From Pseudomonadota bacterium (GTDB taxonomy: Bacteria; Desulfobacterota; Binatia; Binatales; Binataceae), in the NCBI GenBank assembly GCA_021324885.1, contig JAJPIF010000013.1, forward strand, positions 62,001-126,000: a stretch of 64,000 nucleotides of DNA, in the 5' to 3' direction. Under the pieces are notes generated by a model that had not been told where the DNA came from, searched no databases, and saw only the letters and a program-made list of their open reading frames with translations. Below are positions 5,123 to 24,509 of this stretch, in pieces; position 1 is the stretch's first letter, and every line of letters starts with the position of its first letter. Made by a program: the position numbers and the translations under genes.

Positions 5123-6259
5123 TTAGAAGCGGGCCACGGCGAGCTCGGATGCTCGAGGGTCGCGCTCGGGTTTGTGGGTCCAACGCGCATAATGCCGAAT
5201 TACCATGGCGAGAGTTGAATGACCCATATGGTGAGCAACGTAATGCGGATTGGCGCCATCCGAGAGCAGGTTGGCGCCATACGTGTGACGGCATTGATAT
5301 GGCGGGCGCATCCGCAGCCCCGCAAGTCGCAGTAAACGGCGCCAGTTGCGCTGGCGAAAATTATTCCAGTCCAGGGGGGCGCCGTTGGGTCCGACAAAAA
5401 CATAATCCTCGATGCGCCGGGGCCCCGAGATGGTGTCGAGTTCGGCGGCCAGCGGCGCGACGATGTCGACTTCGCGTTCGGAAGCTTCAGTTTTGGTCAT
5501 GCCGTCGCCCCATCGAGTGCGCCCGCGACGGACGCTGATGACCGCGCGGTCCAAATCCACGTCGCGCCATCGCAGACCCAAAGCCTCGCTGGGGCGCAAC
5601 CCCGCCAGCAGAAGGGTGGTGAGAAATGCTCGTTCGGTACCTGGCGCGGCCGCGTCGATCAGCGATTGAGTTTCCTGTCTGGTGAAGGGATCAATCGCCG
5701 CGCGCGGCTCGCGCAGGCTCCGAACCAGACGCGCAGGGTTGTCCGCAATCAGGCCCTCCTCTTCGGCAAGGCGAAAGATGGTTTTCAGCCGAGCCAACGC
5801 CATGTTGGCGCGCCGCGGCCCGGTGCCGGCTTGCTGGAGTTCGACCAGCCAGCGGTCGAGGTCGCGGCGGCTGATCTGGTCCAGCGCCTTGCCGCCCAAC
5901 GCGGTTCCTGCGATCTGTTTTTTGATTAAAAGTCCATAATCATAAAAGGTGCCGGCGGTCAGATGCGCCCGGTGGGCTTCCAGCCATTGGCGCGCATAGT
6001 CCGCCAGTTTGGGACTGGGGCCCTGCGCGGGCTGGAGGCCAAGCCGCTGGGGCTTACGGCTGGCGGGAAACCGCACCGCGTATTCAAAAGTGCCAGCGGC
6101 GAGATCGCGCTCGACCTGAGCGGCGATGCGGGCGGCAAGGCGGCGGTTGTCGCGGTTGTCAGCCAGTCCGAGAAATTCGCGGCAGCGGATTTTTGCGCCG
6201 TTGTGTGCCAACTGGAAGGTGAGCAGCAGACGCCCGTTTTGCGCATGTACCCCGGCCAT
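5123..6259 (-). CDS. int: Tyrosine recombinase / phage-type integrase
   Basis: A 378-residue site-specific recombinase. Residues 1-65 resemble the DUF3596-type arm-DNA-binding domain (GRLLLTFQLAHNG opening, ending GTFEYAVRFP). A SAM-like core-binding domain follows at about 85-180. The catalytic domain shows the first Arg in AGLRPSEALGL, a Lys in TKTEASERE, the YQCRHT box, the GHSTLAM His, and the nucleophilic Tyr in RHYARW. All core residues are present, so it may be active. It mediates integration and excision of the mobile element whose control genes lie immediately upstream (6284-6909). Confidence 0.93.
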   Translation of the reverse strand: MAGVHAQNGRLLLTFQLAHNGAKIRCREFLGLADNRDNRRLAARIAAQVERDLAAGTFEYAVRFPASRKPQRLGLQPAQGPSPKLADYARQWLEAHRAHLTAGTFYDYGLLIKKQIAGTALGGKALDQISRRDLDRWLVELQQAGTGPRRANMALARLKTIFRLAEEEGLIADNPARLVRSLREPRAAIDPFTRQETQSLIDAAAPGTERAFLTTLLLAGLRPSEALGLRWRDVDLDRAVISVRRGRTRWGDGMTKTEASEREVDIVAPLAAELDTISGPRRIEDYVFVGPNGAPLDWNNFRQRNWRRLLRLAGLRMRPPYQCRHTYGANLLSDGANPHYVAHHMGHSTLAMVIRHYARWTHKPERDPRASELAVARF

Positions 6260-6283
6260 TGCTATTTTCCGTCAAGCGTTGGG

Positions 6284-6490
6284 TTAGCGTCCCTCGCCAT
6301 GGCTGGGGTCCAGACTGCCGCTGAGCGCCCGCGCCTTCAAAGTAGGCCAATGAAACAGCGTGCGCCGGCGGACCCTGAACAATCCGTCCTCGTAGGTCAA
6401 ACGCCCGTCAGTGATCCAGTTGTAGATGGTATTGACTGCGACGTGCAGACGTTCGGCAGCTTCTTTCACAGTAATGATGTCGGAATCCAT
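6284..6490 (-). CDS. Excisionase / MerR-like HTH DNA-binding protein
   Basis: A 68-residue protein with the small winged-HTH pattern of excisionase-family proteins: ITVKEAAERLHVAVNTIYNWI followed by a short wing ending RRTLFHWP. Members bind att DNA as recombination directionality factors, or act as small regulators. The ATG at 6490 is chosen because the upstream in-frame extension to 6589 starts with TTG and carries no domain. The gene lies 24 nt upstream of int on the same strand, the usual position for xis. Confidence 0.8.
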   Translation of the reverse strand: MDSDIITVKEAAERLHVAVNTIYNWITDGRLTYEDGLFRVRRRTLFHWPTLKARALSGSLDPSHGEGR

Positions 6491-6585
6491 TCTTGGTACC
6501 CCCCGATCGCTTTCTGGTCTTAGCCCGTTTAAATCTCCATCCATGCACAAAGCGCTGTAATCGCAAGCATCGGCTTTATCAAAAG

Positions 6586-6909
6586 TCAACTTCTGATTAG
6601 CAGTTCAACCGGCAAACCGGTCAGTTCGTACACCCGCAGCAGTTCCGCGCCGCGTGCTTCGGCCATGTTTCCGGCGCGACGCCATCGGTAGAGCGTAGGT
6701 TCGCTCACGCCGATAAGCCGGGCGGCGCGCGCCACTTCTCCCGGTCTTGAACCCGCAATTATCCGGATTGCGGTCTTGACGATATTGGTGAGTTCTGGCG
6801 ACCAGGAGGCGGCAGACTTGCTTTTTTCTGCAACAGAAGGTGAATTACGCCTTTTGCCGTTATCCCTGAACTGATTGCGCCAGGCTTCAGATTTTCGCAG
6901 TGGTTTCAT
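6586..6909 (-). CDS. HTH DNA-binding protein of the integrative element (Cro/CI- or YdaS-like)
   Basis: A 107-residue basic protein. Its centre carries a helix-turn-helix: EVARAARLIGVSEPTLYRWRR (about 58-78). The C-terminal segment (ELTGLPVELLIRS) resembles Cro-type small repressors. It is the first gene of a three-gene leftward module (this gene, xis-like, int). The DNA just upstream (6936-7160) holds six TTGAC/GTCAA half-sites, including two dyads, which suggests autoregulation by this protein. Exact family and role (repressor or activator) are not certain. Confidence 0.65.
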   Translation of the reverse strand: MKPLRKSEAWRNQFRDNGKRRNSPSVAEKSKSAASWSPELTNIVKTAIRIIAGSRPGEVARAARLIGVSEPTLYRWRRAGNMAEARGAELLRVYELTGLPVELLIRS

Positions 6910-6935
6910 TGAGCGGCTTCACTTTAAGCCTTTAT

Positions 6936-7160
6936 TTGACTATTCGTCAAGACAAACGCTCTCAATTTTGACAGACATTTTATCCATGATGTCGCGGCGC
7001 AAGACGAGGTGCCGGAGCCGCGGATGTGGATGAATGGCGGTTTTCGGCCGAAAATCCTCGATTTGCGTAAACGCCATGATCCTTGAGATTAACCATTAGC
7101 ACAAAAAACTGTCAATCAGATTTGACAGAAACCGGAATGGCGATTTAAGATAATCGTCAA
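6936..7160. promoter_or_regulatory. Operator-like cluster of TTGAC/GTCAA half-sites
   Basis: Six TTGAC/GTCAA half-sites occur here: 6936-6940, 6946-6950, 6968-6972, 7111-7115, 7122-7126 and 7156-7160. Two pairs form clean dyads: TTGAC-5nt-GTCAA (6936-6950) and CTGTCAA-6nt-TTGACAG (7109-7128). Chance would give roughly half a site in this length. The stretch divides the leftward HTH/xis/int genes from the rightward phage-type gene at 7528, as a lysogeny-type control region would. Confidence 0.55.
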
Positions 7161-7527
7161 CGTACGGGGGGCGCATCCGAAACCCTAGACAGAGTGGAAT
7201 GGGCGGTAGGACACGGCGGAGAGCAGTGGAGCAACGGAGTGAAGACACCGTCGCGCCCACGCAGATGCGAGTGCGGCCGGGGCCGGGGGAGAAGGGCGGA
7301 ATGAGGAATCGGATGGCGGAAACGCTCCCCGGCCCCGCCGGCTCATCCAGATTGAAACTGTGAGCGTGCCACGCGACGGGTCGGACCACGCGTGCATCGC
7401 GCAGGCCATCCAGGGGTCCGCAGGGAAACCGGCATCACCGGCGCAAACTCCAGCGTTGAATGCGGCGCGCATCTGGAGGAAGACGGGGTGAGCGCGGGGC
7501 TGGATTGTGGCGGGAGGTTTTTTTGCA
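7161..7527. other. Leader region upstream of the phage-type gene
   Basis: About 370 nt of GC-rich DNA without a supportable gene. Open frames on the minus strand here are arginine/serine/proline-rich and lack domains. The only functional signal is GGGAGGT at 7512-7518, which serves as ribosome binding site for the GTG at 7528. Confidence 0.5.
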
Positions 7528-8184
7528 GTGAAACGCTCACGCGGCGGCGCGCTGCCAGCCAATCGGCAAGCAGCCAAGCGCAAAAGGCCGGATAGTTCGG
7601 CTCGGCTGTCACGCGGCTCTCGGGGACTGGTATTGGCGGCTCGAAATTTCGCGGCCAGGATTGCGGAACTGGAAGTGACCAATCATCAGGCCGCCGAGCT
7701 GGCGGGCCGATGGCGCCAGGAAATTGACGCGCGCGAGCGAAGGATTCTGCAATGGTTCGCGCCGGCCAAGCAGGCGGCGTTCAAGGCCCACGCGGCGCTC
7801 TGCAGACAGGAGAACGAAGCGCTGGCGCCTTACCGCGAGGCGCGCCGAGCTGTTAATGCCAAACTTGCGGCATGGAGGCTGGCGCTGGGGCATGAGGATG
7901 GATTGACCGGCGGTACGTGCGAGGCCGCGGCAGCGGAAAGATCCGATGGCGCGCAAGACGGGGGGCGCGTTGAAAGCGTCAGTTTTCGCGAGAACTGGCG
8001 CGCGGAGGTGGTGGACAAACTGGCGCTGTTGAAGGCGATCGCGCAGCGGCCGGAACTGGTCAATCTGGTCGATCCCAATCTGAACGCATTGAACCATCTT
8101 GCCCGCGCGCACAAAAACGCGCTCGACCTTCCGGGCGTACGGGTCTGGTGCGATCTGACCGTGGCTGCCTCGCGCCGTCAGTAA
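7528..8184 (+). CDS. Conserved phage-type protein of unknown function
   Basis: A 218-residue protein. The middle (about 60-115) is a charged helical region likely to form a coiled coil. The C-terminus (about 155-215) follows a pattern I associate with prophage proteins: LALLKAIAQRPELVNLVDPN, then ALNHLARAHKNALDLPGVR. Those proteins also end in an alanine/arginine-rich tail after a conserved PGV. The biochemical role is unknown. The GTG at 7528 is preferred over the GTG at 7507 because GGGAGGT precedes it by about 9 nt. Position opposite the int/xis module suggests it belongs to the same element. Confidence 0.6.
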   Translation: MKRSRGGALPANRQAAKRKRPDSSARLSRGSRGLVLAARNFAARIAELEVTNHQAAELAGRWRQEIDARERRILQWFAPAKQAAFKAHAALCRQENEALAPYREARRAVNAKLAAWRLALGHEDGLTGGTCEAAAAERSDGAQDGGRVESVSFRENWRAEVVDKLALLKAIAQRPELVNLVDPNLNALNHLARAHKNALDLPGVRVWCDLTVAASRRQ

Positions 8185-14165: not shown

Positions 14166-15422
14166 TCAGGACGCCCAGCGGGCCTCCTGGGTGGGTATTT
14201 CCGGTTTGACGTTGGCGTAGGCGCGGCTGACCGGCGTGTTCAACTCGAACGGACTGTTGAGGCCCAGCTCCTTGCCCATTTCACGCAGCGCGGGCAGCAC
14301 CTCCTGACCCATCAGCCGGATGTAACTCATCGAGTCTTCGTGGCTGATTCTGCCGTCGTTGCCCCACAGCGCCACGATCGATGGGCGGGTCTCCTCGAGG
14401 TAAATGCGCAGCTTCTCGATGACCTGTTTGGGCGTGCCGGCGATCAGCGTCAGATTCTTGAGCTGATCCTCCAGGGTGACGCGTTCATGTTTGGCCTTGG
14501 TGCGATAGCCGGCGCGCAACTCCGCCATCGGCCGCCGCGCCCATTCGCCCAGGTAGCCGGAGGGCGCCGCCCACACCGGATGGGTCAGCCCGGTGAACTC
14601 GCCCTGCATCCACATGAACTCGCGGGCGTTGCGCAAGGCCTTCTCTTCGGTTTCGTCCACGCGCACCCGCAGCAGATAGCCGCGATATTCGGGGCCGGCC
14701 TGATAACCGGACTTCTCCGCAGTCTCGTCGTAAAGCCGCCACACTTCCTTGCCGGCCGCGATCGGCAGATTGAGCGCGATGTACGGATAGCCGTGCTGCG
14801 CGCACCATACGATGGTTTCGCGGCTGGAGACGCCCGGAACCCAGATGCGCGGATGGGGCTTCTGCATCGGGATTACCCAGGGATTGACCACGCGGAACTG
14901 ATAATGGTTGCCTTCCCAGCGCCAGGGGCCCGGATGGGTCCACGTCTTGATGATCAAATCGTGGGCCTCTTCGAAGCGCTCGCGATTGAAGGCGGGGTTG
15001 GTGTTGCTGGCGAAGGCCTCGACGCCGCCACCACGAACGATTCCGGGGACCAGCCGGCCCTTGGAGAGCAGGTCGATCATCGCCAGTTCCTCGGCCAGGC
15101 GGATGGGATTGTCGGCCACCGGCAAGGGATTTCCCAGCAGTACGATTTTGACCCGCTTGGTCGTGGCCGCGATGGCGGTGGCGAAGATGTTGCATTTGGC
15201 CTGCATGCAGAACGGCGCGTTGTGGTGCTCGTTGAGCATGATGCCGTCCCAACCGCATTCTTCCACGTACTGATATTCTTCGAGCCGTTCGTTATAAAGC
15301 CGGCTTCCGGAAATCGGGTCGAAGAACTTGTTGGGGAACAGCAACGCGGTGTATCCGTAACGGTCGCCTTCCGCGGCCGGATAGGTCGACATCGGTTGCT
15401 CGGTAAAGTACATCAAATGCAT
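14166..15422 (-). CDS. LLM-class flavin-dependent oxidoreductase (luciferase-like)
   Basis: A 418-residue bacterial luciferase-like monooxygenase, a TIM-barrel enzyme that uses reduced FMN or F420. Typical signatures include WDGIMLNEHHN near residue 60, the KIVLLGNPLPVADNPIRLAEE segment near 95, and the LLSKGRLVPGIVRGGG turn near 125. It probably oxidises an organic substrate with O2; the exact substrate and flavin cannot be read from sequence. GAGGAG precedes the ATG. It is divergent from the VOC gene at 15666. A second, more distant LLM enzyme lies at 60389-61603. Confidence 0.9.
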   Translation of the reverse strand: MHLMYFTEQPMSTYPAAEGDRYGYTALLFPNKFFDPISGSRLYNERLEEYQYVEECGWDGIMLNEHHNAPFCMQAKCNIFATAIAATTKRVKIVLLGNPLPVADNPIRLAEELAMIDLLSKGRLVPGIVRGGGVEAFASNTNPAFNRERFEEAHDLIIKTWTHPGPWRWEGNHYQFRVVNPWVIPMQKPHPRIWVPGVSSRETIVWCAQHGYPYIALNLPIAAGKEVWRLYDETAEKSGYQAGPEYRGYLLRVRVDETEEKALRNAREFMWMQGEFTGLTHPVWAAPSGYLGEWARRPMAELRAGYRTKAKHERVTLEDQLKNLTLIAGTPKQVIEKLRIYLEETRPSIVALWGNDGRISHEDSMSYIRLMGQEVLPALREMGKELGLNSPFELNTPVSRAYANVKPEIPTQEARWAS

Positions 15423-15665: not shown

Positions 15666-16025
15666 ATGGTCAAGGCGCGCAGACTTTATCACATTAATCT
15701 GAACGTCAGCGACATTGAGCGGTCGGTGCGTTTTTACCAAAAGGCGTTCGGCCTGGTCGAGAACTTCCGCCAGGGTCCGCGGATGGTCTTCCTCAGCCCG
15801 CAAGGCGCCGACGACGTGATTACGTTGCATCAGACCGAGCCCGTGGGGCCACAGGGTGTGGCCCATTTCGGCTTCCGGATCGAAGGCGGCAGCCTCGACG
15901 ACGCGGTGGCTGCGGTCGTGGCGGCCGGCGGCAAGTTCCTGAGCAAGGGCCAGCACGCTCCCGGCGTGCTCTATGCCTACGTCCAGGACCCCGACGGCTA
16001 CGTGATCGAGTTGTCGCCGGCCTGA
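15666..16025 (+). CDS. VOC/glyoxalase-fold protein
   Basis: A 119-residue single vicinal-oxygen-chelate module with the paired beta-alpha-beta-beta-beta pattern. Candidate metal ligands are His9 (LYHINLNVSD), His67 (VAHFGFRI) and the Glu near the end (YVIELSPA). VOC proteins act as dioxygenases, glyoxalases, isomerases or resistance proteins, so the activity is open. GAGGAGC precedes the ATG. It is divergent from the LLM gene and ends 17 nt from the end of the oppositely oriented phage cassette, marking that cassette's left border. Confidence 0.85.
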   Translation: MVKARRLYHINLNVSDIERSVRFYQKAFGLVENFRQGPRMVFLSPQGADDVITLHQTEPVGPQGVAHFGFRIEGGSLDDAVAAVVAAGGKFLSKGQHAPGVLYAYVQDPDGYVIELSPA

Positions 16026-16042: not shown

Positions 16043-17131
16043 TTAGCGGGCGGAGCGGAACAGGGCGGCCAGATCACCGCCGTTTTTGTCCACGTAGCGC
16101 TCGTATGCTTCGTCGTCCATGTCGGCGATGTCTTCAAGCGTGACCGGGCCGTCCGGGGGACGCGACGCGATTGCCTGCAGGCTGCTGGAGGCGGCTTTCT
16201 TGCGCTGCAATTCACGGATCTGATCGGCTGCGCTGACGGCGTCGGCGCCTGTGGGCTGCGCCGTTGACGGCGCCGCCATCCTCTTGTAGCCCCACTGCTC
16301 CGACAGTTCGTGCGCAACCATCGCCGGATTGCGGCCCTGGCGGATAGCCCCGCTGACCAGCATCGACGCCTCATTGGCGATTATGCGGGCCCGCTCGGCG
16401 GCGTCGGTGTAGCCCATCAGTTCCAGTTCGCGATTGCGCCGCTCGCGCAGAAATTTGACCCGGTCGTAATAGTCGGGATGGCCCGCAAGGATGAACTCCT
16501 GCTCCAGGCCGCTGAGCACCGCTTGATGGTGCGCGGCCTGGGCTTGCGCGGTATTGAATTGCTGCTGCTGATGCAGGGCTTCGAGCGCGCGCCGATGCTG
16601 GCGCAGTTCCCATTGATAATGCGCCTGGGGATCGGCTGCGGGATCGGGTTCGGGATCGACGGCCGGACGCGCAGCCGCATTGACCTCGGCCGCCGCGCGC
16701 TCCTGGAGCAGACGCAAGCGTTCGCTGACGCGATTCCATTTCTCCTCGTGCTCGGCCAGCTTGCGGTTCAACTCCTCCAGATGGCGCTTGAGCGAGCGGT
16801 TCTCCTGCCGCTCCTTGACCAGCGACCACGCCGGGACACTGTCGTTGGGAGCCATCTTGCGGACCTGTTCATCCGACAATGGCGCGGCGCCGTCGTCGTG
16901 GCTGTCATCGTCGCCGGCCTGCTCGACCTGGCGGACGGTCCGCTCCTGCGCCGGGTCAACGCGCTGCGCCGCGTCCTGCTCCGGGGGCTGAGCATCTGCG
17001 GCATTACCGGAAGCGAGCGCGGCCTCCTCGGCGGGGTCAAGCAGTTCCGGGTCCTCGCCAAAGGAAGCAATATTGGCGGGTTCCATCGATTCCATGGCCG
17101 CCCGATCGGCGTCCTTCTTCTTCATCGCCAT
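16043..17131 (-). CDS. Phage scaffolding-like protein
   Basis: A 362-residue acidic, alanine- and glutamate-rich protein. Residues about 100-165 contain VPAWSLVKERQENRSLKRHL and a long coiled coil. A valine-proline-x-x-x-L-x-x-E-R start to a coiled coil is common in head scaffolding proteins of tailed phages. The C-terminus (about 325-362) has EDIADMDDEAYERYVDK, also of a type seen at the end of scaffold proteins. Such proteins direct procapsid assembly. It is the last gene of the minus-strand cassette that begins with the portal; no major coat gene follows, which is unexpected. GAGGAG precedes the ATG. Confidence 0.6.
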   Translation of the reverse strand: MAMKKKDADRAAMESMEPANIASFGEDPELLDPAEEAALASGNAADAQPPEQDAAQRVDPAQERTVRQVEQAGDDDSHDDGAAPLSDEQVRKMAPNDSVPAWSLVKERQENRSLKRHLEELNRKLAEHEEKWNRVSERLRLLQERAAAEVNAAARPAVDPEPDPAADPQAHYQWELRQHRRALEALHQQQQFNTAQAQAAHHQAVLSGLEQEFILAGHPDYYDRVKFLRERRNRELELMGYTDAAERARIIANEASMLVSGAIRQGRNPAMVAHELSEQWGYKRMAAPSTAQPTGADAVSAADQIRELQRKKAASSSLQAIASRPPDGPVTLEDIADMDDEAYERYVDKNGGDLAALFRSAR

Positions 17132-17188
17132 CTCACAACTCCTCTAACTTGTGCTTTTGCGAACCGATTTCGCGCGGATAGCTGATTT

Positions 17189-17581
17189 TCAAAGCCGCTG
17201 GACTGCGCGGCTGTATTGCGCCCATTGGACTTCAAGTTCGCGCGCCACGAGGCGTTCGACGCGCTCGGCGAATTGATGCTCGCGGCGGTAGGGCGCCTGA
17301 ATCGAGTCGCCGGGTTCAATTGGTTCACCTTTGCGCCGCTTGCTTTCGTACTCGATATCGAAGCGGGTGATCTGGCTGAAAGGAATACGCCGCCAGTCAC
17401 ACAAAAACGCCTCAATCAGCTCGTGCAGGGCGACCAGAAATTCGTAGCGGCGGTCGCCCATGCGCGAGACCCGGATCTGCAGACACTCGCCTCCGGCTTC
17501 ATCCAGGTCGCGCCAGTAATTGCCAACCGTATCGTATTCCTGAAAATGATGAGGAATTGTCCTGATCTGCACGTTGAGCAT
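17189..17581 (-). CDS. Phage-type small protein with a HELIE motif
   Basis: A 130-residue protein with the pattern YEFLVALHELIEAFLC at about 46-61. His53, Glu54 and Glu57 form an HExxE arrangement. A further His102 lies in PYRREHQFAE, giving three possible metal ligands. I associate this architecture with small phage proteins of unknown function often found near head genes. Whether it binds a metal or cleaves a peptide is unproven. It lies between the ATP-grasp gene (35 nt upstream) and the scaffold-like gene (57 nt downstream), all on the minus strand. Confidence 0.6.
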   Translation of the reverse strand: MLNVQIRTIPHHFQEYDTVGNYWRDLDEAGGECLQIRVSRMGDRRYEFLVALHELIEAFLCDWRRIPFSQITRFDIEYESKRRKGEPIEPGDSIQAPYRREHQFAERVERLVARELEVQWAQYSRAVQRL

Positions 17582-17615
17582 GTCGCTGACGAAATTTCCT
17601 TGGCGCCGGCGTGAT

Positions 17616-18863
17616 TTACCAGTCGATACCGAACTGCTGTCCCTGTTCGATCGAATCCATCACCGAGTTGAGCGCGTCGCGATCGAACTCCAGCTCCAGT
17701 CCCTGGACGGCTTGCGCATGCTCGAGGGCGGCGTTTACCGCATCCTCCAGGGAATTGCCCAAACCGATCGCAGCGCCGACCTCCCGAATCCCCAGCGGCG
17801 CCGCGTAGTCGCGTCCCTCGATCCGGCAATGGCCGTGAATTTTGATGAAGCGGCGCACTGAATCCGGTATGTCGAGGGCCAGGAAATGCTTGGTTGCCCA
17901 TTGCGAGCGCAGGATGATTTCGGCGGCATAGAGCGCGACTGGTTTGAATTCGGCAACTTCGCCGTCGGCGCCGGCCCAGATCACCTCGTCCCAATTGGAA
18001 AACAGCTCGATATAGGCTTCGGAGGGCGGGGAGCCGGCGCGCATCGCGGGATCCATCAGATAAGGTTGGCGGTCGGGCCCGACTCGGACCTCGGTTGAAA
18101 AAAAGCTGCGGCACCCCAGCGCCGCCATCGCCGGCGCCAATTTCGTGTTCACCTCCTTCAAGGGCGGCGGCAGATCCTCATAGTCAACCACCCTGCCGAT
18201 ATAGCCCGCGTCCTTGGCCTCGTAACCGAAGCAGGCAACGGAGGGAAAGCGGCCGTCGATACAGGCGCCGTCATACCCGGTTTCAACGCCTTCAATCGGA
18301 TCCTCGACCACGAATACGGTGGAGGCTTGCCGCGGCCCGAGTCGGCTCGCGAGATCATCGAGCAGCGGCTGCGTCACTACCCAGTTGGTATTGCGGAAGG
18401 TTTCCACGTCGCCGCGAAAGACATTGCCCTTGACGTAAACTCCGGGGTTGTCCCTGAGGTAATCGCGCAATGCGTCAATTCCGACGATAATACGGTAGGG
18501 CGCTACCGGCAGGCCGGCGCTCTTCATCACGGTCTTGAGTTCGTCGCGGTAAAGCTCGAGAATTTCGGCATGTCCCGAACCCCAGACCCGCTTGCCCTGA
18601 CGGCGCAAAAATGCCTGCTCACCGGCGAAATAGGTATCGGGAAACACTATGAGGTCAGCGTTCTCGACATGGTCCCAGGCGTTGGGAACGCGCTGGATTC
18701 CCTCCAGGCCCGCGCCAACGTTGAACCGTTCGGAAACGGGAAACGCCGTTCGCCATCCATTGCAGTAGTAGAGCACGCGCCCGAATGATTGCGCGAGCCG
18801 CTGCGCGACATGGACGTAGAGTCCCTGGTCGATAACCAGTGCGGTTTGTTTCGAAAAGTCCAT
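17616..18863 (-). CDS. Phage-cassette ATP-grasp-like ligase (GAR synthetase/PurD-like fold)
   Basis: A 415-residue protein whose central part resembles ATP-grasp ligases. An N-terminal Rossmann-like domain ends near DLIVFPDTYFAGEQ. A lysine-bearing strand VYVKGNVFRGDVET lies near residue 145, and an acidic metal-binding strand near 270 has STEVRVGPDRQPYLMDPAMR. ATP-grasp enzymes join a carboxylate to an amine through an acyl-phosphate. The classic ligand Asn of ExNxR is replaced here by a DPAMR version, so catalysis should not be assumed. It is embedded among phage head genes, a place where purine biosynthesis would be unexpected. Confidence 0.55.
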   Translation of the reverse strand: MDFSKQTALVIDQGLYVHVAQRLAQSFGRVLYYCNGWRTAFPVSERFNVGAGLEGIQRVPNAWDHVENADLIVFPDTYFAGEQAFLRRQGKRVWGSGHAEILELYRDELKTVMKSAGLPVAPYRIIVGIDALRDYLRDNPGVYVKGNVFRGDVETFRNTNWVVTQPLLDDLASRLGPRQASTVFVVEDPIEGVETGYDGACIDGRFPSVACFGYEAKDAGYIGRVVDYEDLPPPLKEVNTKLAPAMAALGCRSFFSTEVRVGPDRQPYLMDPAMRAGSPPSEAYIELFSNWDEVIWAGADGEVAEFKPVALYAAEIILRSQWATKHFLALDIPDSVRRFIKIHGHCRIEGRDYAAPLGIREVGAAIGLGNSLEDAVNAALEHAQAVQGLELEFDRDALNSVMDSIEQGQQFGIDW

Positions 18864-18920
18864 CTGGCGTGGAGAAGGTCAGCGCAATATCATTGCCTGC
18901 CCGGGTAAATGGCGGCGCTC

Positions 18921-19670
18921 CTACAGGTAGCGGCGCAAGGTCCAGAAATCCGAGGCCAGCTCCGGATTTTCAAGGTAAGCATACGGCATCGTGAAGTAGC
19001 CGCGCATGCCCCAATGCATACCCCACGAGTTGCGTACGATGAATCGTTTTTCCCGATCATCGTAGCCGGCGGCCATCACGGCGTGTCCGCCAATCACGGA
19101 CTCGTCGGCGGCGGGCAGATTGAGTATGCCGCTGGCGGCGACTTCGGCGCTCTCAAAGGCGTCATACACCGTAAAGCCGAACACGAAGGGATAGCCGGCG
19201 GCCAAACAGGATTTGAGCGCAAAAAGCTCTTGCGGCACGCGAAAGTAATTGCGCGCCAAATCCCGCCGCGCTTCCCGGTAACAGACGGCTGCGGGTTTGA
19301 CGAACAAAAGATTCTGCAGGTACGGCCACTGTGGTTCCGGACACACGCCTGCGGTGGCGACGCTTTTGCATCCGTCGCGCAACTGCGCGCCGCTGTCGGA
19401 GCCGACACTGCCTTCGATCGCGCGCTCGTTGTAATAGATAAACAAGCGCGACGGGGTGAACGCCTCCCTTCCCTCCTTTATCAAATCAAATTCGAGGGCC
19501 GCCGCGATTGCATTGGCGGTGCACGAGCCGATTTCGCCCTGATCGTAAATCGCCGGACACTTCGGGCGCAAATCGACCTTTTCCGGCAGCTCGGCCAGGG
19601 TCGGACGCAGGCGCTGGTCGCGCGCATCCGGCAAATCGCGTCTCCAACCGTAACGCTGAACTTTCCTCAT
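18921..19670 (-). CDS. Papain-like cysteine peptidase (C1 family) in phage cassette
   Basis: A 249-residue C1A-type peptidase. The oxyanion Gln44 and nucleophile Cys50 lie in DQGEIGSCTANA, the catalytic His196 in GGHAVMAAGYDD, and Asn214 in RNSWG. All catalytic residues are intact. There is no signal peptide and practically no propeptide: the mature fold begins about 30 residues in. It would therefore act in the cytoplasm, or be carried in a virion. GGGGGGAG precedes the ATG. The gene lies between the glycosyltransferase-like and ATP-grasp genes. Confidence 0.88.
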   Translation of the reverse strand: MRKVQRYGWRRDLPDARDQRLRPTLAELPEKVDLRPKCPAIYDQGEIGSCTANAIAAALEFDLIKEGREAFTPSRLFIYYNERAIEGSVGSDSGAQLRDGCKSVATAGVCPEPQWPYLQNLLFVKPAAVCYREARRDLARNYFRVPQELFALKSCLAAGYPFVFGFTVYDAFESAEVAASGILNLPAADESVIGGHAVMAAGYDDREKRFIVRNSWGMHWGMRGYFTMPYAYLENPELASDFWTLRRYL

Positions 19671-19714
19671 CTCTCCCCCCGATTTCCGGTCTCCGCCTGA
19701 GCGCGGACCTGTGG

Positions 19715-20692
19715 TTATTGCAGCGAATTGACGTCCTCGTTGCGCTGGCGGAAATACACGTCGAGGTCGTGCTGAAGCCCCGGCTTGTTGCCGGCCAGCT
19801 CCAGAACTCCGAAAGAATTGCGCTTGATATCGGTGTCCGGATCAAATTGATGTTCGATCATTATCTGCCATCGATCGACATACCTGCGATCGAACTTGCG
19901 ACCGTGGAAGTAATGTTCAATCGTTCCCGGCACAAAGCCGATATTGAGGTTTACATGATGAAGCGCGCGTTCCTGCCAGCGCTTGAGATGCTTCCAATAC
20001 GGCGGCGTAACTCCCCGCCTGGTGCCCGGCAGTCCTGGAATTGAGTATTCGGCTCTGCCGATCAGCGCGTAGGCCATATGGTGGTCTCCGGCGCCCATCA
20101 CAGCCAGTTCGAACAGTCCGCCGAGCCATTCATACGCCGCGCGCGTGCACGCCCACGCATAGCCGGAGTGCGGATAATGGTAAGGGCCGCCCGCAAATTT
20201 CCACCATACCGGGCCGCGGGGACATACCGCGGCGGTCCCGTTCATCCACCATTCATGGCAAAACGACTTATGCGCCTGGATATGCTCGTCGTTGGGCCCG
20301 AGATCATAGGCGTCAACCCAGGGCTGCACGACTTCATACTGTTGCAGAGCTTGGATGGTTTCGGTCGCCCATCCCGCTTTGCGAAACCGGATATCGCCGT
20401 CGCACCAGCACAGGTACTTCCAATCGGGAAATTTGCGCGCGATGTCCCGCACGCCGAGATTGATCAGGCATTCCTTATTCCACAGCAGGGTTTTGGCGCG
20501 AACGCCGACATGGTTGATACCCGGTTGATCGGCCAGTTCGAACGGGCGTTCGCCATATTGGCATTCCACCACCGTCACTCTCACCCCTGCCTCACGCATC
20601 CCGTTCAGGAACAGATGGAAAAGCCTCATTCGACTTTTCCATCGCACCGGATTAGCTACCACACTGACTACATGAAGCAGACTGGCATCCAT
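19715..20692 (-). CDS. Glycosyltransferase-like protein of the phage cassette
   Basis: A 325-residue protein that looks like a GT-A-type glycosyltransferase. It opens with a Rossmann-like strand (LLHVVSVVANP), and about residue 98 carries YLCWCDGDIRF, where DGD fits the metal and nucleotide-sugar binding DxD motif. An Asp-His-His segment (GAGDHHMAYALIG) follows near 200. The start at 20692 is chosen because GGAGAG lies 9 nt upstream; the longer frame to 20815 would overlap the previous gene. It might modify virion proteins, DNA or the host surface. The acceptor is unknown. Confidence 0.65.
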   Translation of the reverse strand: MDASLLHVVSVVANPVRWKSRMRLFHLFLNGMREAGVRVTVVECQYGERPFELADQPGINHVGVRAKTLLWNKECLINLGVRDIARKFPDWKYLCWCDGDIRFRKAGWATETIQALQQYEVVQPWVDAYDLGPNDEHIQAHKSFCHEWWMNGTAAVCPRGPVWWKFAGGPYHYPHSGYAWACTRAAYEWLGGLFELAVMGAGDHHMAYALIGRAEYSIPGLPGTRRGVTPPYWKHLKRWQERALHHVNLNIGFVPGTIEHYFHGRKFDRRYVDRWQIMIEHQFDPDTDIKRNSFGVLELAGNKPGLQHDLDVYFRQRNEDVNSLQ

Positions 20693-20762
20693 GCGTTCTC
20701 TCCGAGACGGAAATGATTGGCAAATCGCCGCTAATGACTCCGCAGACGCCAAAGCGGCGCCG

Positions 20763-21161
20763 TTATCCGGCAATTCGCAGCTCTTTGCGAATCGCCTTAC
20801 GCAGCTCGTCGTCAACCGTGCCTATTCTCATCCCGCTGGCATACAGGTATTTGTAGGCGATTGCGCGCTCGGCGTCGCTGAGATTGCCGATCAGTTCGGC
20901 GACGCGGTCCTCGTGGATTTTAAGCGCCGATTCGAAGCTGTCGCCGCCGGCTTTTCCATCCGCAGTAGTGTTCTGCTGGGCGGCGGCGCTGCCGAAGGGT
21001 GGAAACCAGATTGCGGCAAACGGATAATTACCGGCCGCGCCGACTATACAATCATTGATGCTCATGCGGTTGCCCTCCGCGGCGGCGATATTGGAGAAAA
21101 GAGAAAAGGATAAAAGAGAGCAGGCAAAGGGCACGAAGCCGGTCTCCCGCCCGTTGCTCAT
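20763..21161 (-). CDS. Small phage-cassette protein of unknown function
   Basis: A 132-residue protein whose ATG overlaps the portal stop codon (ATGA), indicating translational coupling. The C-terminal part (about 75-130) is helical and charged: FESALKIHEDRVAELIGNLS, then a YKYLYASGMRIG segment. An internal start at Met33 (21065) is possible and would drop a hydrophobic N-terminus. I recognise no family. The position between portal and glycosyltransferase suggests a structural or modification role. Confidence 0.5.
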   Translation of the reverse strand: MSNGRETGFVPFACSLLSFSLFSNIAAAEGNRMSINDCIVGAAGNYPFAAIWFPPFGSAAAQQNTTADGKAGGDSFESALKIHEDRVAELIGNLSDAERAIAYKYLYASGMRIGTVDDELRKAIRKELRIAG

Positions 21162-23149
21162 TTTCCCTGCCTCATGGCGCCCAATGCACTTAGCGCAGCG
21201 CCCAGCTGCCTCATCCGCGACTGGCTGTCGATCGCCCGCGCTCGCGCGCGCGACAACTCCGCCGCCGCGGTTTTCTGTGCGACCGTGGCTTGTATTTCTG
21301 CCGGATTCTTCGCGCCCGGCCGGGCGGTTGGCGGCGGAGCGGGGGAATTCATGCGGGCCGCAAGCTGCTGCTTGAGTTTGGACGCAATTGACGCAGGGAA
21401 GGGACTGTAGTCCAGAATCTCGGGAAGGAAGGCATTGGCCTTGACCAGCATCGGCAGAATCGGCGCCATCTTCTCCCAGAACACTTCTTTCGCGTTGGGC
21501 GATTTGGCCGGCTCGTCGATCACCAGATCGTAATCAAGCGGCAGATGCTGGCGCAGCAGCGGGATCGCGCGTGAATCGTAAGGGCCGCCCAGGCGCACCA
21601 GCCGCCCGTCGGCAACGAAGTTGCGGATGAACTCGAAGACGCATCGCGCCTCCTCGCGCAGGTAGCGCGTTAGCGCGCTGAAATAGCCCGCGTTAATGGT
21701 CATCCCCTGGATTTGACGCTGGCGCTGCGCCACGCCCGGAACATCGCCGGTAGTCGCGCCCAGCAGTTCCGGATTGATCCCCGACACGCCACCCAGCGCG
21801 TCGATACACCATTTGAGCATCACGAACGTGCCGTCGGGCAAAGTCGGCCGGCTGCGTTCCTGGATCCGGGGGCGGTCACTGGAGAGGGCGCCGTCCTCCA
21901 GCAATATCAGGGCGCTGGGATTGGCCCAGTCCTGCTCCGCCTTGACCGGATCGGCGAAAGCGGTGGCCTCGGCCAGCAGGCCCCCCTTGGCATTGCTGTT
22001 GATGATGTGGAGGGTCTGGCTGAAGAACTTGTTGGCGAAACGCTGCGGATCCATTAAAACGTGCAGCAACCCGCGCCACACCTTGTCGTGCGCGTCGAAG
22101 CCGCCGGTCATCGCCTTGTAGGTAAAGCCGACGCCCTGAACCGGCAACGGCCCCGCCTCCAGTTCGATCGGACCCGCGGTAAAGCAGCGTTTGTACACGC
22201 GTCGTTCCTGGCGCACATACGGAATTACGGTGCCCTGCGTCTGCGAGGACGCGGACGCCTCCTCAACCAGAACCATCCCCGCCTGCTCCAGGCGCCGGCG
22301 CAGGGTATCGAATTGGGGCTCGTTGAGTTCCCGGATCTGGTTGGTCTGGGGATCGGCGACGCGGTAAATGGGCTCGACCTCGTAATACTGGTACTCGACC
22401 ACCCGGACATATCCCGAGGGCGGACCGCCGGGAATTATGGTCTGATTTTCGGGCTGATATTCGATTGGAGTCGCGTGTTCGACGACATCGGGCTCGTCCT
22501 GCGGATTGTCCTGGCGTAAAAACTCCGCCACTTTCAGTTCGCGCTCGCGGGAGGGCCATCGCCGGCAGGCCTCGCGCAGCGGAATCTCCTCTTCGCACGC
22601 CACCCAGCGCGCATCCTCGAGGTTTTGCTTGCGCGCGGCGGGATCCCAATGCATCTTCATGCCGTCGACGCGTTCGAGCACGATTTTGCCGTCGGCGGTC
22701 TGCTCCATGTCGAGGCGGCAGTTGGTCCAACCCATGCCGCGCACCAGCATGTCCTCGAACGCCTGCGAGCGCTCCTCGGGACCGTTGCAGGCGTCGATTA
22801 CGGAGCTATAGATGGCGGTGCTGAGTTCGCCCAGCGCATTAGCCAGTTCCATCTGGGGCATGCGCGGGACGAATACTATTTCCTGGCGATTGTATTTTTC
22901 GGTGCCGGCAACGATGCGGATATATTTCTGGGCGAAATTGAAAACCGCGGTGGGCCGGTCTTCCTCGTTGAGGCGGGCCTCGTCCGCGGGATGCCATTGA
23001 CGGCCGGACAAAAAGCGATCCGCCTCGCGCGCTTCGCGCCGCCAGCGGCCGATGGCGGCCGCCGCCCTGCTCAGGTCCCGCCCCACGCGCGCGGCCAGTT
23101 CGCTGCCTAACGCAAATGTCGCCTCTCCGCCCTGCTCACCCGCCTCCAC
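21158..23149 (-). CDS. P22-like phage portal protein
   Basis: A 663-residue protein with the hallmarks of P22-type portals. Near the start it has an acidic/aromatic FLSGRQWHPADEARL stretch, then PTAVFNFAQKYIRIVAGTEKYNRQE. The fold core continues through the middle, with VRQERRVYKRCFTAGPIELE, and a long C-terminal helical tail (about 595-663) is rich in alanine and arginine. Portals form the dodecameric DNA channel at one capsid vertex. P22 gp1 is about 725 residues, so this one is near full length. It is the first gene of the cassette; no terminase genes precede it. Confidence 0.85.
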   Translation of the reverse strand: MEAGEQGGEATFALGSELAARVGRDLSRAAAAIGRWRREAREADRFLSGRQWHPADEARLNEEDRPTAVFNFAQKYIRIVAGTEKYNRQEIVFVPRMPQMELANALGELSTAIYSSVIDACNGPEERSQAFEDMLVRGMGWTNCRLDMEQTADGKIVLERVDGMKMHWDPAARKQNLEDARWVACEEEIPLREACRRWPSRERELKVAEFLRQDNPQDEPDVVEHATPIEYQPENQTIIPGGPPSGYVRVVEYQYYEVEPIYRVADPQTNQIRELNEPQFDTLRRRLEQAGMVLVEEASASSQTQGTVIPYVRQERRVYKRCFTAGPIELEAGPLPVQGVGFTYKAMTGGFDAHDKVWRGLLHVLMDPQRFANKFFSQTLHIINSNAKGGLLAEATAFADPVKAEQDWANPSALILLEDGALSSDRPRIQERSRPTLPDGTFVMLKWCIDALGGVSGINPELLGATTGDVPGVAQRQRQIQGMTINAGYFSALTRYLREEARCVFEFIRNFVADGRLVRLGGPYDSRAIPLLRQHLPLDYDLVIDEPAKSPNAKEVFWEKMAPILPMLVKANAFLPEILDYSPFPASIASKLKQQLAARMNSPAPPPTARPGAKNPAEIQATVAQKTAAAELSRARARAIDSQSRMRQLGAALSALGAMRQGK

Positions 23150-23473
23150 GTAAACTCCCCCGCACAGCCGCGCTGCGGCGTGGCCGCCGCATTAGCTATT
23201 GCTGACGATTCATCAAAGACAAACCGGTACGCATACGAGACGCGCCAATTGAGTATCAATTAAGATATCATGTCCGCAGTTCGGATTTCCAGTTCGGGCC
23301 GAACCGCCTGTGGCGCGGCGCGCTTTGAAAGCTGTTGCCTGTCAATGGGTTGGCAAAAACCTCAGGCGGCCGCCACCTGCCGCATTCACTGATCGCCGGC
23401 CCTGGCGACTATCGCCGATCGCTGACTTGCCTGATTGTCGCCGTCCCGGGGCCGGGCGGGTCAGCCGGGTCCG
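23150..23473. other. Region upstream of the phage cassette
   Basis: About 320 nt between the portal start and the enoyl-CoA hydratase stop. I see no terminase fragment or other gene. It contains an AT-rich patch around 23240-23275 that could hold the cassette promoter, with the dyad at 23247-23261. Confidence 0.5.
23247..23261. promoter_or_regulatory. Dyad in the AT-rich patch upstream of the portal gene
   Basis: AATTGA-GTA-TCAATT is a perfect 6-bp inverted repeat about 100 nt upstream of the portal start, in the only AT-rich stretch of this intergenic region. A regulator site or part of a promoter is possible. It does not match the TTGAC operators at 6936-7160 beyond the shared TTGA. Confidence 0.3.
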
Positions 23474-24250
23474 CTATTCGATCTTCCACTGCGGCTTGCG
23501 CTTTTGCGCAAACGCGCGGGGGCCTTCGACAACATCATGGGAATGCAGCAGTTTGTGCAGCCCGGGGAATTTCTCGTCCACCGCCCGTTCCAGCGGCATA
23601 TCGAGTCCCTTCAGCGCGGCTTCCTTGGTCGCCTGCACGGCCAACGGAGAGCATTCCATGATTTCGGCCGCCCAGCGCTCCACGGCCGGGAAGAGATCCT
23701 TAAGCGGGACGACTTCATTGACGATGCCGTAGGCGTGGGCTTGCTGCGCCGTGATATGCCGGCCGGTCAGCATCATGCCCATCGCGAGTTTCAGCGGAAT
23801 CTGACGCGGCAAACGATGGACTCCGCCGCCCATCGCGATCAGGCCGACCCGCGGCTCGGGCAGGCCGAAGCGGGCATGGTCGGCGGCGACGACAATATCG
23901 CAGGCCATCGCGATTTCGAAGCCGCCGCCCAGCGCGAAGCCGTTGACGGCCGCAATCAGCGGCTTGTTGATGTCGAAGCGGGCGACGAATCCGCCGAAGC
24001 CGCCCCGCGTTTTGGTCCCCTTCATCGAATGGGTAGCCGTGTATTTAAGGTCGTTGCCGGCGGAAAAGGCCTTTTCCCCCGCGCCGGTCACCACGGCTAT
24101 CCAGACATTATTGTCAGCTGCGAAATCATCCAGCACCTGGCCCATTTCCTCGGCGGTCGGCGGATGGATGGAATTCATGACCTCGGGCCGGTTGATGGTT
24201 ATGTAAGCGAGGCGATCGCGCTTTTCGTATTTCAGGAATTTCAAATCCAT
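23474..24250 (-). CDS. Enoyl-CoA hydratase/isomerase (crotonase family)
   Basis: A 258-residue crotonase-fold enzyme. The first oxyanion-hole segment is KAFSAGNDLK (60-69) and the second is NGFALGGGFEIAMACD (103-118). Both Glu positions used for acid/base catalysis in hydratases are present (E112 in FEIAMACD, E132 in FGLPEPRVG), which favours a true hydratase. It would hydrate 2-enoyl-CoA in fatty-acid or aromatic-acid degradation. The start at 24250 is preferred; the extension to 24310 is unlike the family and overlaps the next gene. Confidence 0.9.
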   Translation of the reverse strand: MDLKFLKYEKRDRLAYITINRPEVMNSIHPPTAEEMGQVLDDFAADNNVWIAVVTGAGEKAFSAGNDLKYTATHSMKGTKTRGGFGGFVARFDINKPLIAAVNGFALGGGFEIAMACDIVVAADHARFGLPEPRVGLIAMGGGVHRLPRQIPLKLAMGMMLTGRHITAQQAHAYGIVNEVVPLKDLFPAVERWAAEIMECSPLAVQATKEAALKGLDMPLERAVDEKFPGLHKLLHSHDVVEGPRAFAQKRKPQWKIE

Positions 24251-24278
24251 CTCAGCAATTAACCTCTCAGTACGCCCT

Positions 24279-24509
24279 TCATTCGTCCAACAATTCGAAA
24301 AACGCGTCAACGCTGCGCATCAACTGGCTGCGAATCTGCGCCCGGGTGCCTTCGATAACGTGCATGGTTATACGCGAGGCGCTGCCGTCGGCAAGCCGCA
24401 CCACCGCGTTTTCCACCGCGGTTATCTGTTGCGGGGCGAATGTCCTCATGCCATAGACCAGCGTCGCCCTGCGGCCAGCGCCTTTGACCAGCTTGAGCCT
24501 GCGCGCCAT
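24279..24509 (-). CDS. Small protein of unknown function
   Basis: A 76-residue protein. It begins with a basic stretch (MARRLKLVKGAGRR), has a regular alternation of hydrophobic residues through the middle, and ends with FFELLDE. AAGGAG about 7 nt before the ATG at 24509 supports expression and selects this start over the upstream one at 24539. It ends 28 nt before the crotonase start, so the two may be cotranscribed. I do not recognise the family. Confidence 0.5.
   Translation of the reverse strand: MARRLKLVKGAGRRATLVYGMRTFAPQQITAVENAVVRLADGSASRITMHVIEGTRAQIRSQLMRSVDAFFELLDE

Follow-up and report, generated by a model that had tools for sequence, protein, structure and literature searches.

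According to PMC9662315, gene transfer agents (GTAs) consist of tailed-phage-derived proteins that form phage-like particles, package mostly random host DNA and deliver it to other cells. In the same account, GTA genes are fully endogenized, often at multiple loci, and mostly vertically inherited, and the size of the head prevents full packaging of the agent's own genome; three independently exapted groups are evaluated there, few GTAs having a known genetic basis. RcGTA and its relatives and the GTAs of Bartonella and Brachyspira, which are treated there as viriforms, have chromosomal phage-derived virion and packaging genes that occupy more than one locus, occur clade-wide and are under purifying selection (PMC9662315). 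Here, we analyzed a 64,000-nucleotide stretch of contig JAJPIF010000013.1 (hereafter the window) from a member of the Binataceae, focusing on seven genes at 16043-23149. We found that the virion gene set to which these genes belong resembles those GTAs in the chromosomal and evolutionary respects just named and is divided between two chromosomal loci; as judged from sequence comparison, the block is likely to be the first of two loci that encode a particle domesticated from a short-tailed phage, a GTA-like element. The element differs from the described systems in carrying enzyme genes between the portal and scaffold genes, and a short-tailed ancestry is indicated by its P22-type portal together with its SU10-type adaptor. 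RcGTA is long-tailed, and Desulfovibrio Dd1 looks short-tailed and has no known genes. Literature searches returned no comparable GTA, nor one from related hosts, which is our sole basis for calling the element undescribed. We call it GTA-like, not a proven GTA; unlike the described GTAs, it is known here from genes alone.

The window lies within the 156-kb contig C4 of a 4.5-Mb genome (G000), which was compared with two genomes of the same genus g1 (G001 and G002) and one of the sister genus g3 (G004). We refer to the portal-to-scaffold block as locus 1 and to the terminase plus the coat-to-fibre-like block as locus 2. The seven open reading frames of locus 1 are all open, lie on the minus strand and have the coordinates and order proposed in the initial annotation: portal, small gene, glycosyltransferase-like (GT-like) gene, C1 peptidase, ATP-grasp protein, HELIE protein and scaffold-like gene. 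The portal (21158..23149, minus strand), which had been described as P22-like, proved to be so: it matched PF16510 (P22_portal) with an E value of 1.6e-81 over residues 27-637 of 663, at 275 bits against a family cut-off of 26.1, and PHROG 156 (portal) with E 5.4e-80. It was 85-86% identical to the portals of G001 and G002 and 71-74% identical to that of G004, with a ratio of nonsynonymous to synonymous substitution (dN/dS) of 0.10-0.11 within the genus.

The nearest portals and coats were those of short-tailed phages, namely MW202512, Rhizobium phage RHph_Y1_10, Microcystis phage Mae-JY35 and Paracoccus phage vB_PmaP_KLEP18-1, which showed 30-34% (portal) and 39-52% (coat) identity to the element. 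The order portal, scaffold, coat, cited earlier as the norm for P22-type phages, was present as one stretch in all four relatives, with adaptor and nozzle-like matches in some; some of the four carry homing or HNH endonucleases within this stretch. In contrast to the element, these phages have genomes of 39-44 kb with their genes in a single stretch, and no match to the cargo genes or to the element's terminase was found in the stretches compared.

No coat or terminase was found near locus 1 in G000. In G004, the portal, ATP-grasp and scaffold genes are followed by a VWA gene on the opposite strand and then by the coat and further virion genes. With the G004 coat as query, every genus genome yielded exactly one coat (contig C6 in G000, C67 in G001 and C42 in G002), and the sole Terminase_6N match in each of these genomes adjoins that coat. 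One coat and one Terminase_6N match were found per genome in all four genomes. In the three genomes of the genus, coat and terminase lie off the portal's contig, and the contiguous virion cluster of an ordinary prophage was not observed. The window does not include this element's terminase, coat or tail genes, which are at a second locus, and this division of the virion gene set is the main feature of the system. Locus 1 of G000 is separated from each end of its contig by 70,954 bases or more, a minimum that also holds for the distance between the two loci; the whole genomes of the nearest phages measure 39-44 kb. In G004, contig C22 carries the terminase, which lies some 380 bases from the contig end, and the portal-to-tail genes are on another contig; two genes beside this terminase have relatives in G002 that lie no more than roughly 15 kb from the terminase there. 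The terminase stretches PPQHGKS (Walker A), VDPA/IDPA and HDDMLDA, which we take to have functional roles in the enzyme, are kept in all four genomes.

Locus 2 of G000 begins with the terminase, a weakly HprK-like gene, the coat, an SU10-type adaptor and a PHROG 3287 protein that resembles the gene named nozzle in KLEP18-1. Several proteins without assignment follow, together with a PHROG 4287 'DNA ejection' protein, a protein of 1121 amino acids that appears fibre-like by eye and has only its start in common with G004, and a protein of 147 amino acids without a family match. A gene resembling a glycosyl hydrolase 108 family endolysin is found beside the virion genes of G004 (L021:13144-13653), and the 147-amino-acid gene is similarly placed in G000. 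The HprK-like gene (L022:17388-18395; E 4.8e-4, far below the model cut-off) lies between terminase and coat, occupies the place of portal and scaffold in the free phages and evolves faster than the virion genes. Two further locus-2 proteins (L022:5184-8549 and L022:11667-12575) have N-termini that by eye resemble export signals, which is unusual for virion proteins.

Both loci are embedded among host genes. The host flanks of locus 2 are the same on both sides in the three genomes of the genus, with OmpA, enoyl-CoA hydratase and SDR genes on one side and enoyl-CoA hydratase, MFS, Omp85 and TamB genes on the other. For locus 1, the flanking host genes of G000 and G002 are the same, apart from local turnover, and those of G001 agree on one side. 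On the scaffold side in G000 are a glyoxalase-family gene (15666..16025, plus strand; PF00903, E 1.2e-14), which is 17 bases from the scaffold stop and has the same place in G001, and a luciferase-like monooxygenase (14166..15422, minus strand; PF00296, E 2.8e-40), found on the same side in G001 and G002. On the portal side is an enoyl-CoA hydratase (23474..24310, minus strand; PF00378, E 2.6e-65), on the same side in G002, beyond which are the type II secretion genes T2SSE, T2SSF and T2SSK.

These positions bear on whether the split is merely an error in the assembly or binning of metagenome-assembled genomes (MAGs), the element being a still infectious phage or prophage. The MAG assemblies are fragmented, and IMG/VR holds six contigs, viral according to that collection, that carry this coat at 85-93% identity. 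However, both loci lie beside host genes inside contigs in three genomes, and the synonymous divergence (dS) of the element is near that of its host neighbours. The six IMG/VR contigs show the locus-2 order downstream of the coat as far as they extend, and none carries a portal. Only two of them, L048 and L050, include over 800 bases of sequence upstream of the coat; there the former has the HprK-like gene, in agreement with locus 2, and the latter a kelch-repeat gene. No portal relative was found in IMG/VR by a pattern search that needs exact short patterns. We therefore consider an infectious phage very unlikely, and the six contigs serve as a warning that sequences catalogued as viral may be fragments of loci fixed in a host.

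To compare the element with its host neighbours, dN/dS was calculated by the Nei-Gojobori method, with TamB and the HprK-like gene kept apart and matches below 40% identity excluded; the luciferase-like monooxygenase and glyoxalase genes were complete enough for the G000-G001 pair only. Ten locus-2 genes gave dS values of 0.90-1.10 and dN/dS values of 0.115-0.139, and the portal and scaffold gave 0.74-0.94 and 0.137-0.151. The corresponding values were 0.81-1.19 and 0.110-0.142 for four cargo genes and 0.84-0.92 and 0.127-0.150 for six host neighbours. The virion genes are thus under purifying selection and about as diverged as their host neighbours. Where the compared genes of the four genomes could be aligned, they contained no internal stops. 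Portal and coat occurred in 4 of 41 family genomes, which were all the genomes of the order in the data set; the carriers are the three g1 genomes and the single g3 genome. These four formed one clade, with a support of 98, in a PurH+PurD tree that covered 18 family genomes and two outgroups; genus g5 was dropped from this tree, its PurH being in two pieces, and three family genomes and one outgroup were without PurD. Among 395 genomes across the phylum, three besides G000 had weak portal matches (best E values of 9.9e-13 to 1.1e-8).

A prophage broken by rearrangement and now decaying would leave two functionless remnants, with a group of early-type genes at 5123-8184 as the rest. This group comprises, in coordinates given without strand, an integrase (5123-6259; PF00589, E 8e-20; PHROG 1 integrase, E 1.3e-61), two helix-turn-helix/excisionase-like genes (6284-6589 and 6586-6909; PHROG 66 and 2907, E about 1e-6) and an exonuclease-family-like gene (7507-8184; PHROG 10477, E 9.3e-18). 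Its proximity to locus 1 suits such decay, as does the fact that no particle was seen. By contrast, the intact reading frames noted above, dN/dS values of 0.115-0.151, the same positions in three species and the conserved terminase motifs all argue against decay, and host-type genes (an RlpA-like gene, an AcrB-family transporter and a luciferase-like monooxygenase) separate the early-type genes from locus 1. Decay of this kind is, in our judgement, unlikely. The group at 5123-8184 may be an early-region remnant of an old prophage or an unrelated mobile element; it had no match among the loci compared from the other genomes, the contigs of G001 and G002 stopping short of the corresponding place. 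Nine integrase-family matches were found in G000, one of them, at 5123-6259, being 9.8 kb from locus 1 and none on contig C6.

A third possibility is a domesticated particle with a role other than DNA transfer, such as killing of competitors or delivery of a protein, for example the peptidase. Enzyme-like genes in the head operon fit such a role, and vertical inheritance and selection suit any useful particle. The terminase, however, has a dN/dS of 0.10, a constraint equal to that of the portal, which is hard to explain without DNA packaging, and the cargo differs between species; we regard such a role as improbable.

A domesticated GTA-like element accounts better for the data than a prophage or a remnant, because the gene set is split, both loci have host flanks, the element is shared across the clade, its divergence is like that of its neighbours, its genes are under purifying selection and the terminase motifs are conserved. 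These results suggest a new GTA lineage rather than an ordinary prophage. In terms of the definition in PMC9662315, three features are present. The element has phage-derived proteins, by similarity only (portal, coat, terminase, adaptor and ejection protein match phage families); it is endogenized at multiple loci (two host-flanked loci in three genomes and two contigs in the fourth); and its inheritance is mostly vertical (same positions in three species, one clade and dS near that of host neighbours).

Several observations weigh against this conclusion. The integrase and early-type phage genes at 5123-8184 lie 8-11 kb from locus 1, which lowers our confidence in a GTA-like element. TamB and the HprK-like gene, which are host or near-host genes, diverge faster, dS values near 1 are close to saturation, and purifying selection also acts on active phages. 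The host PurH+PurD tree joins G000 with G002 (support 95), and portal and coat are nearest between G001 and G002; by this comparison, which involved no formal test, host and element groupings agree at the genus level and conflict within the genus. The surroundings of locus 1 have also turned over, with a CBS gene replacing glyoxalase and different genes before the enoyl-CoA hydratase in G002, and G001 agrees with G000 on one flank only. Finally, the comparison draws on just four genomes, three from one genus and one from a second, each assembled into many contigs.

If the element is GTA-like, its progenitor would be a phage whose genes ran from terminase through portal, scaffold, coat, adaptor and nozzle to ejection protein, and which became fixed in the ancestor of two sister genera. 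Its virion genes would then have been scattered, portal to scaffold going to locus 1 and the terminase and coat-to-fibre-like genes to locus 2, and phage replication would have been lost. In some cells, both loci might switch on; scaffold and coat would assemble a head on the portal, into which the terminase would pump chromosomal DNA, and the cell would lyse, releasing short-tailed particles that donate DNA to relatives. The inserted genes would be accessory, and the ATP-grasp protein, the constant one, may modify the particle or a host component. Tentatively, and with a little less than even confidence, we propose an independently domesticated short-tailed GTA of uncultured soil bacteria that is spread over at least two loci, with a head operon that includes an ATP-grasp gene in both genera and with a tandem-pseudoknot leader ahead of the coat gene; the enzymes carried as cargo would adapt either the particle or the recipient cell to DNA transfer. 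We know of no other GTA in which enzyme cargo tunes the particle or recipient. If true, an additional GTA origin from a short-tailed phage with a P22 portal would widen the range of phage bodies kept by bacteria, and the two distinct split patterns in sister genera would let the dismantling of a prophage be followed. The head-operon enzymes also raise the question of why the ATP-grasp gene stays in every host.

The initial annotation had rightly placed a mostly enzyme-like block between the portal and a scaffold-like gene, and had proposed that it forms a recurring module and a pathway. Five genes are inserted between portal and scaffold in G000 and G002, four in G001, which lacks the C1 peptidase, and one, the ATP-grasp gene, in G004. 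G002 has all seven genes of the block, G001 has six, and G004 has three, namely those for portal, ATP-grasp and scaffold. The module is thus kept in full order in G002 and without C1 in G001, and does not extend to G004. Because the ATP-grasp gene is the sole inserted gene common to all four genomes, the proposed pathway is variable cargo, not a fixed one. No ATP-grasp relative was found in the phage collection or, by pattern search, in IMG/VR. The GT-like protein and the C1 peptidase look like phage-borne cargo. Relatives of the GT-like gene are followed by a papain-like protein (identified by eye; Pfam confirms neither) at L085:8001-10116 and L086:8031-9796, as C1 follows GT in G000, and the GT relative in L084 lies among head genes in a phage whose coat belongs to Phage_capsid (PF05065).

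Profile searches, which had been recommended for each protein, returned Pfam families for the portal and C1 and no family match for the small gene, GT-like, ATP-grasp and HELIE proteins in Pfam, PHROG or NCBIfam. The C1 peptidase (18921..19670, minus strand) is intact and papain-like, as had been claimed: it matched Peptidase_C1 (PF00112) with E 8.1e-15, and its best solved relative was PDB 3ois, 'Cysteine protease' (E 7.2e-68, spanning nearly the whole protein), which we take to be xylellain. It carries GSC, GGHA and RNSWG, presumably the catalytic motifs, and differs from 3ois in sitting within a phage head gene block. It was not found in G001 or G004.

The ATP-grasp protein (17616..18863, minus strand) was 80-82% identical within the genus and 67% identical to that of G004, and its dN/dS of 0.09-0.13 within the genus indicates a constraint like that of the portal. 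A profile built from the four sequences matched PurD, phosphoribosylamine-glycine ligase (2yw2), with E 2.2e-4 over positions 8-382 of 415, so that the earlier ATP-grasp assignment gained support. The match covers most of the protein; the identity to PurD is only 26-30%, however, and the ExN site, which we take to be the metal-site motif of PurD, reads DPA in all four sequences, the stretch EFNVRFGDPE becoming DPAMRAGSPP. By family match and motif, the protein is not PurD proper, although a related fold is supported. As the ExN site reads DPA, the protein is unlikely to catalyse the PurD reaction and is probably not the glycine ligase of purine synthesis. Four weak, distant ATP-grasp matches in family genomes were rejected, as they look like host PurD; the two that were inspected (G012 and G016) are PurD-like and each lies beside a PurH-like gene.

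For the GT-like protein (19715..20815, minus strand), the glycosyltransferase name rests on a DxD motif, and the protein is a putative glycosyltransferase at most. The motif is retained in a 36%-identical relative in Xanthomonas phage XaC1, in which DGD reads DAD, and further relatives at 48-60% identity are found in four IMG/VR contigs. Conservation sets in at Met42, so that a start near 20692 is more likely than the annotated one. Structure predictions, proposed earlier for both enzymes, were run and failed to give a usable model: the mean predicted local distance difference test score (pLDDT) was 41 for the ATP-grasp protein, from 4 sequences, and 36 for the GT-like protein, from 3 sequences, whose fold was not established.

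The small gene (20763..21161, minus strand) overlaps the portal end and has homologues in G001 and G002 (54-60% identity); none was found in G004. The HELIE protein (17189..17581, minus strand) has no relative in the phage collection, and its HELIE motif is invariant in three genomes. The scaffold-like protein (16043..17131, minus strand) is named mainly from its position and a weak, composition-sensitive similarity. Direct comparison with the low-complexity filter off gave 26-33% partial similarity to the gene that the four free phages carry between portal and coat, and with the filter on, one short match was left (E 0.002); the whole phage collection yielded no relative.

Upstream of the coat, a leader of ~230 bases is conserved in the three genus genomes, G004 and three IMG/VR contigs. 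It contains two pseudoknot-like units (L022:17064-17183 on contig C6 of G000; L024:7974-8100; L026:11251-11369; L013:7999-8134; L050:1657-1791), each foldable as an H-type pseudoknot; the two copies are distinguished by a swap of G-C to C-G. In a set of nine distinct sequences, 93% of the pairs form, versus 26-49% when the pairing is slid. The covariation score was reached by 1 of 500 shuffles, while the count of pairs changed on both sides was reached by 269 of 500, a single swap driving the covariation signal. No Rfam match to the leader was found. The exact leader pattern occurs in four stretches of IMG/VR, all on contigs with this coat, and the leader can be read as a tandem pseudoknot seen only with this coat.

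Neither a tRNA nor an Rfam match was found in the window, and a promoter and terminator scan gave results at chance level. An AT-rich motif upstream of the portal (23250..23269, minus strand), conserved in three genomes, is a possible promoter candidate; it had one match in its own genome at 3 mismatches, as did a reversed control pattern. A common promoter for portal and coat is possible, the similarity being modest. The AT-rich motifs upstream of the portal (23250-23269) and the coat (L022 about 17184-17205) are alike in G001 and G002 and weakest in G000.

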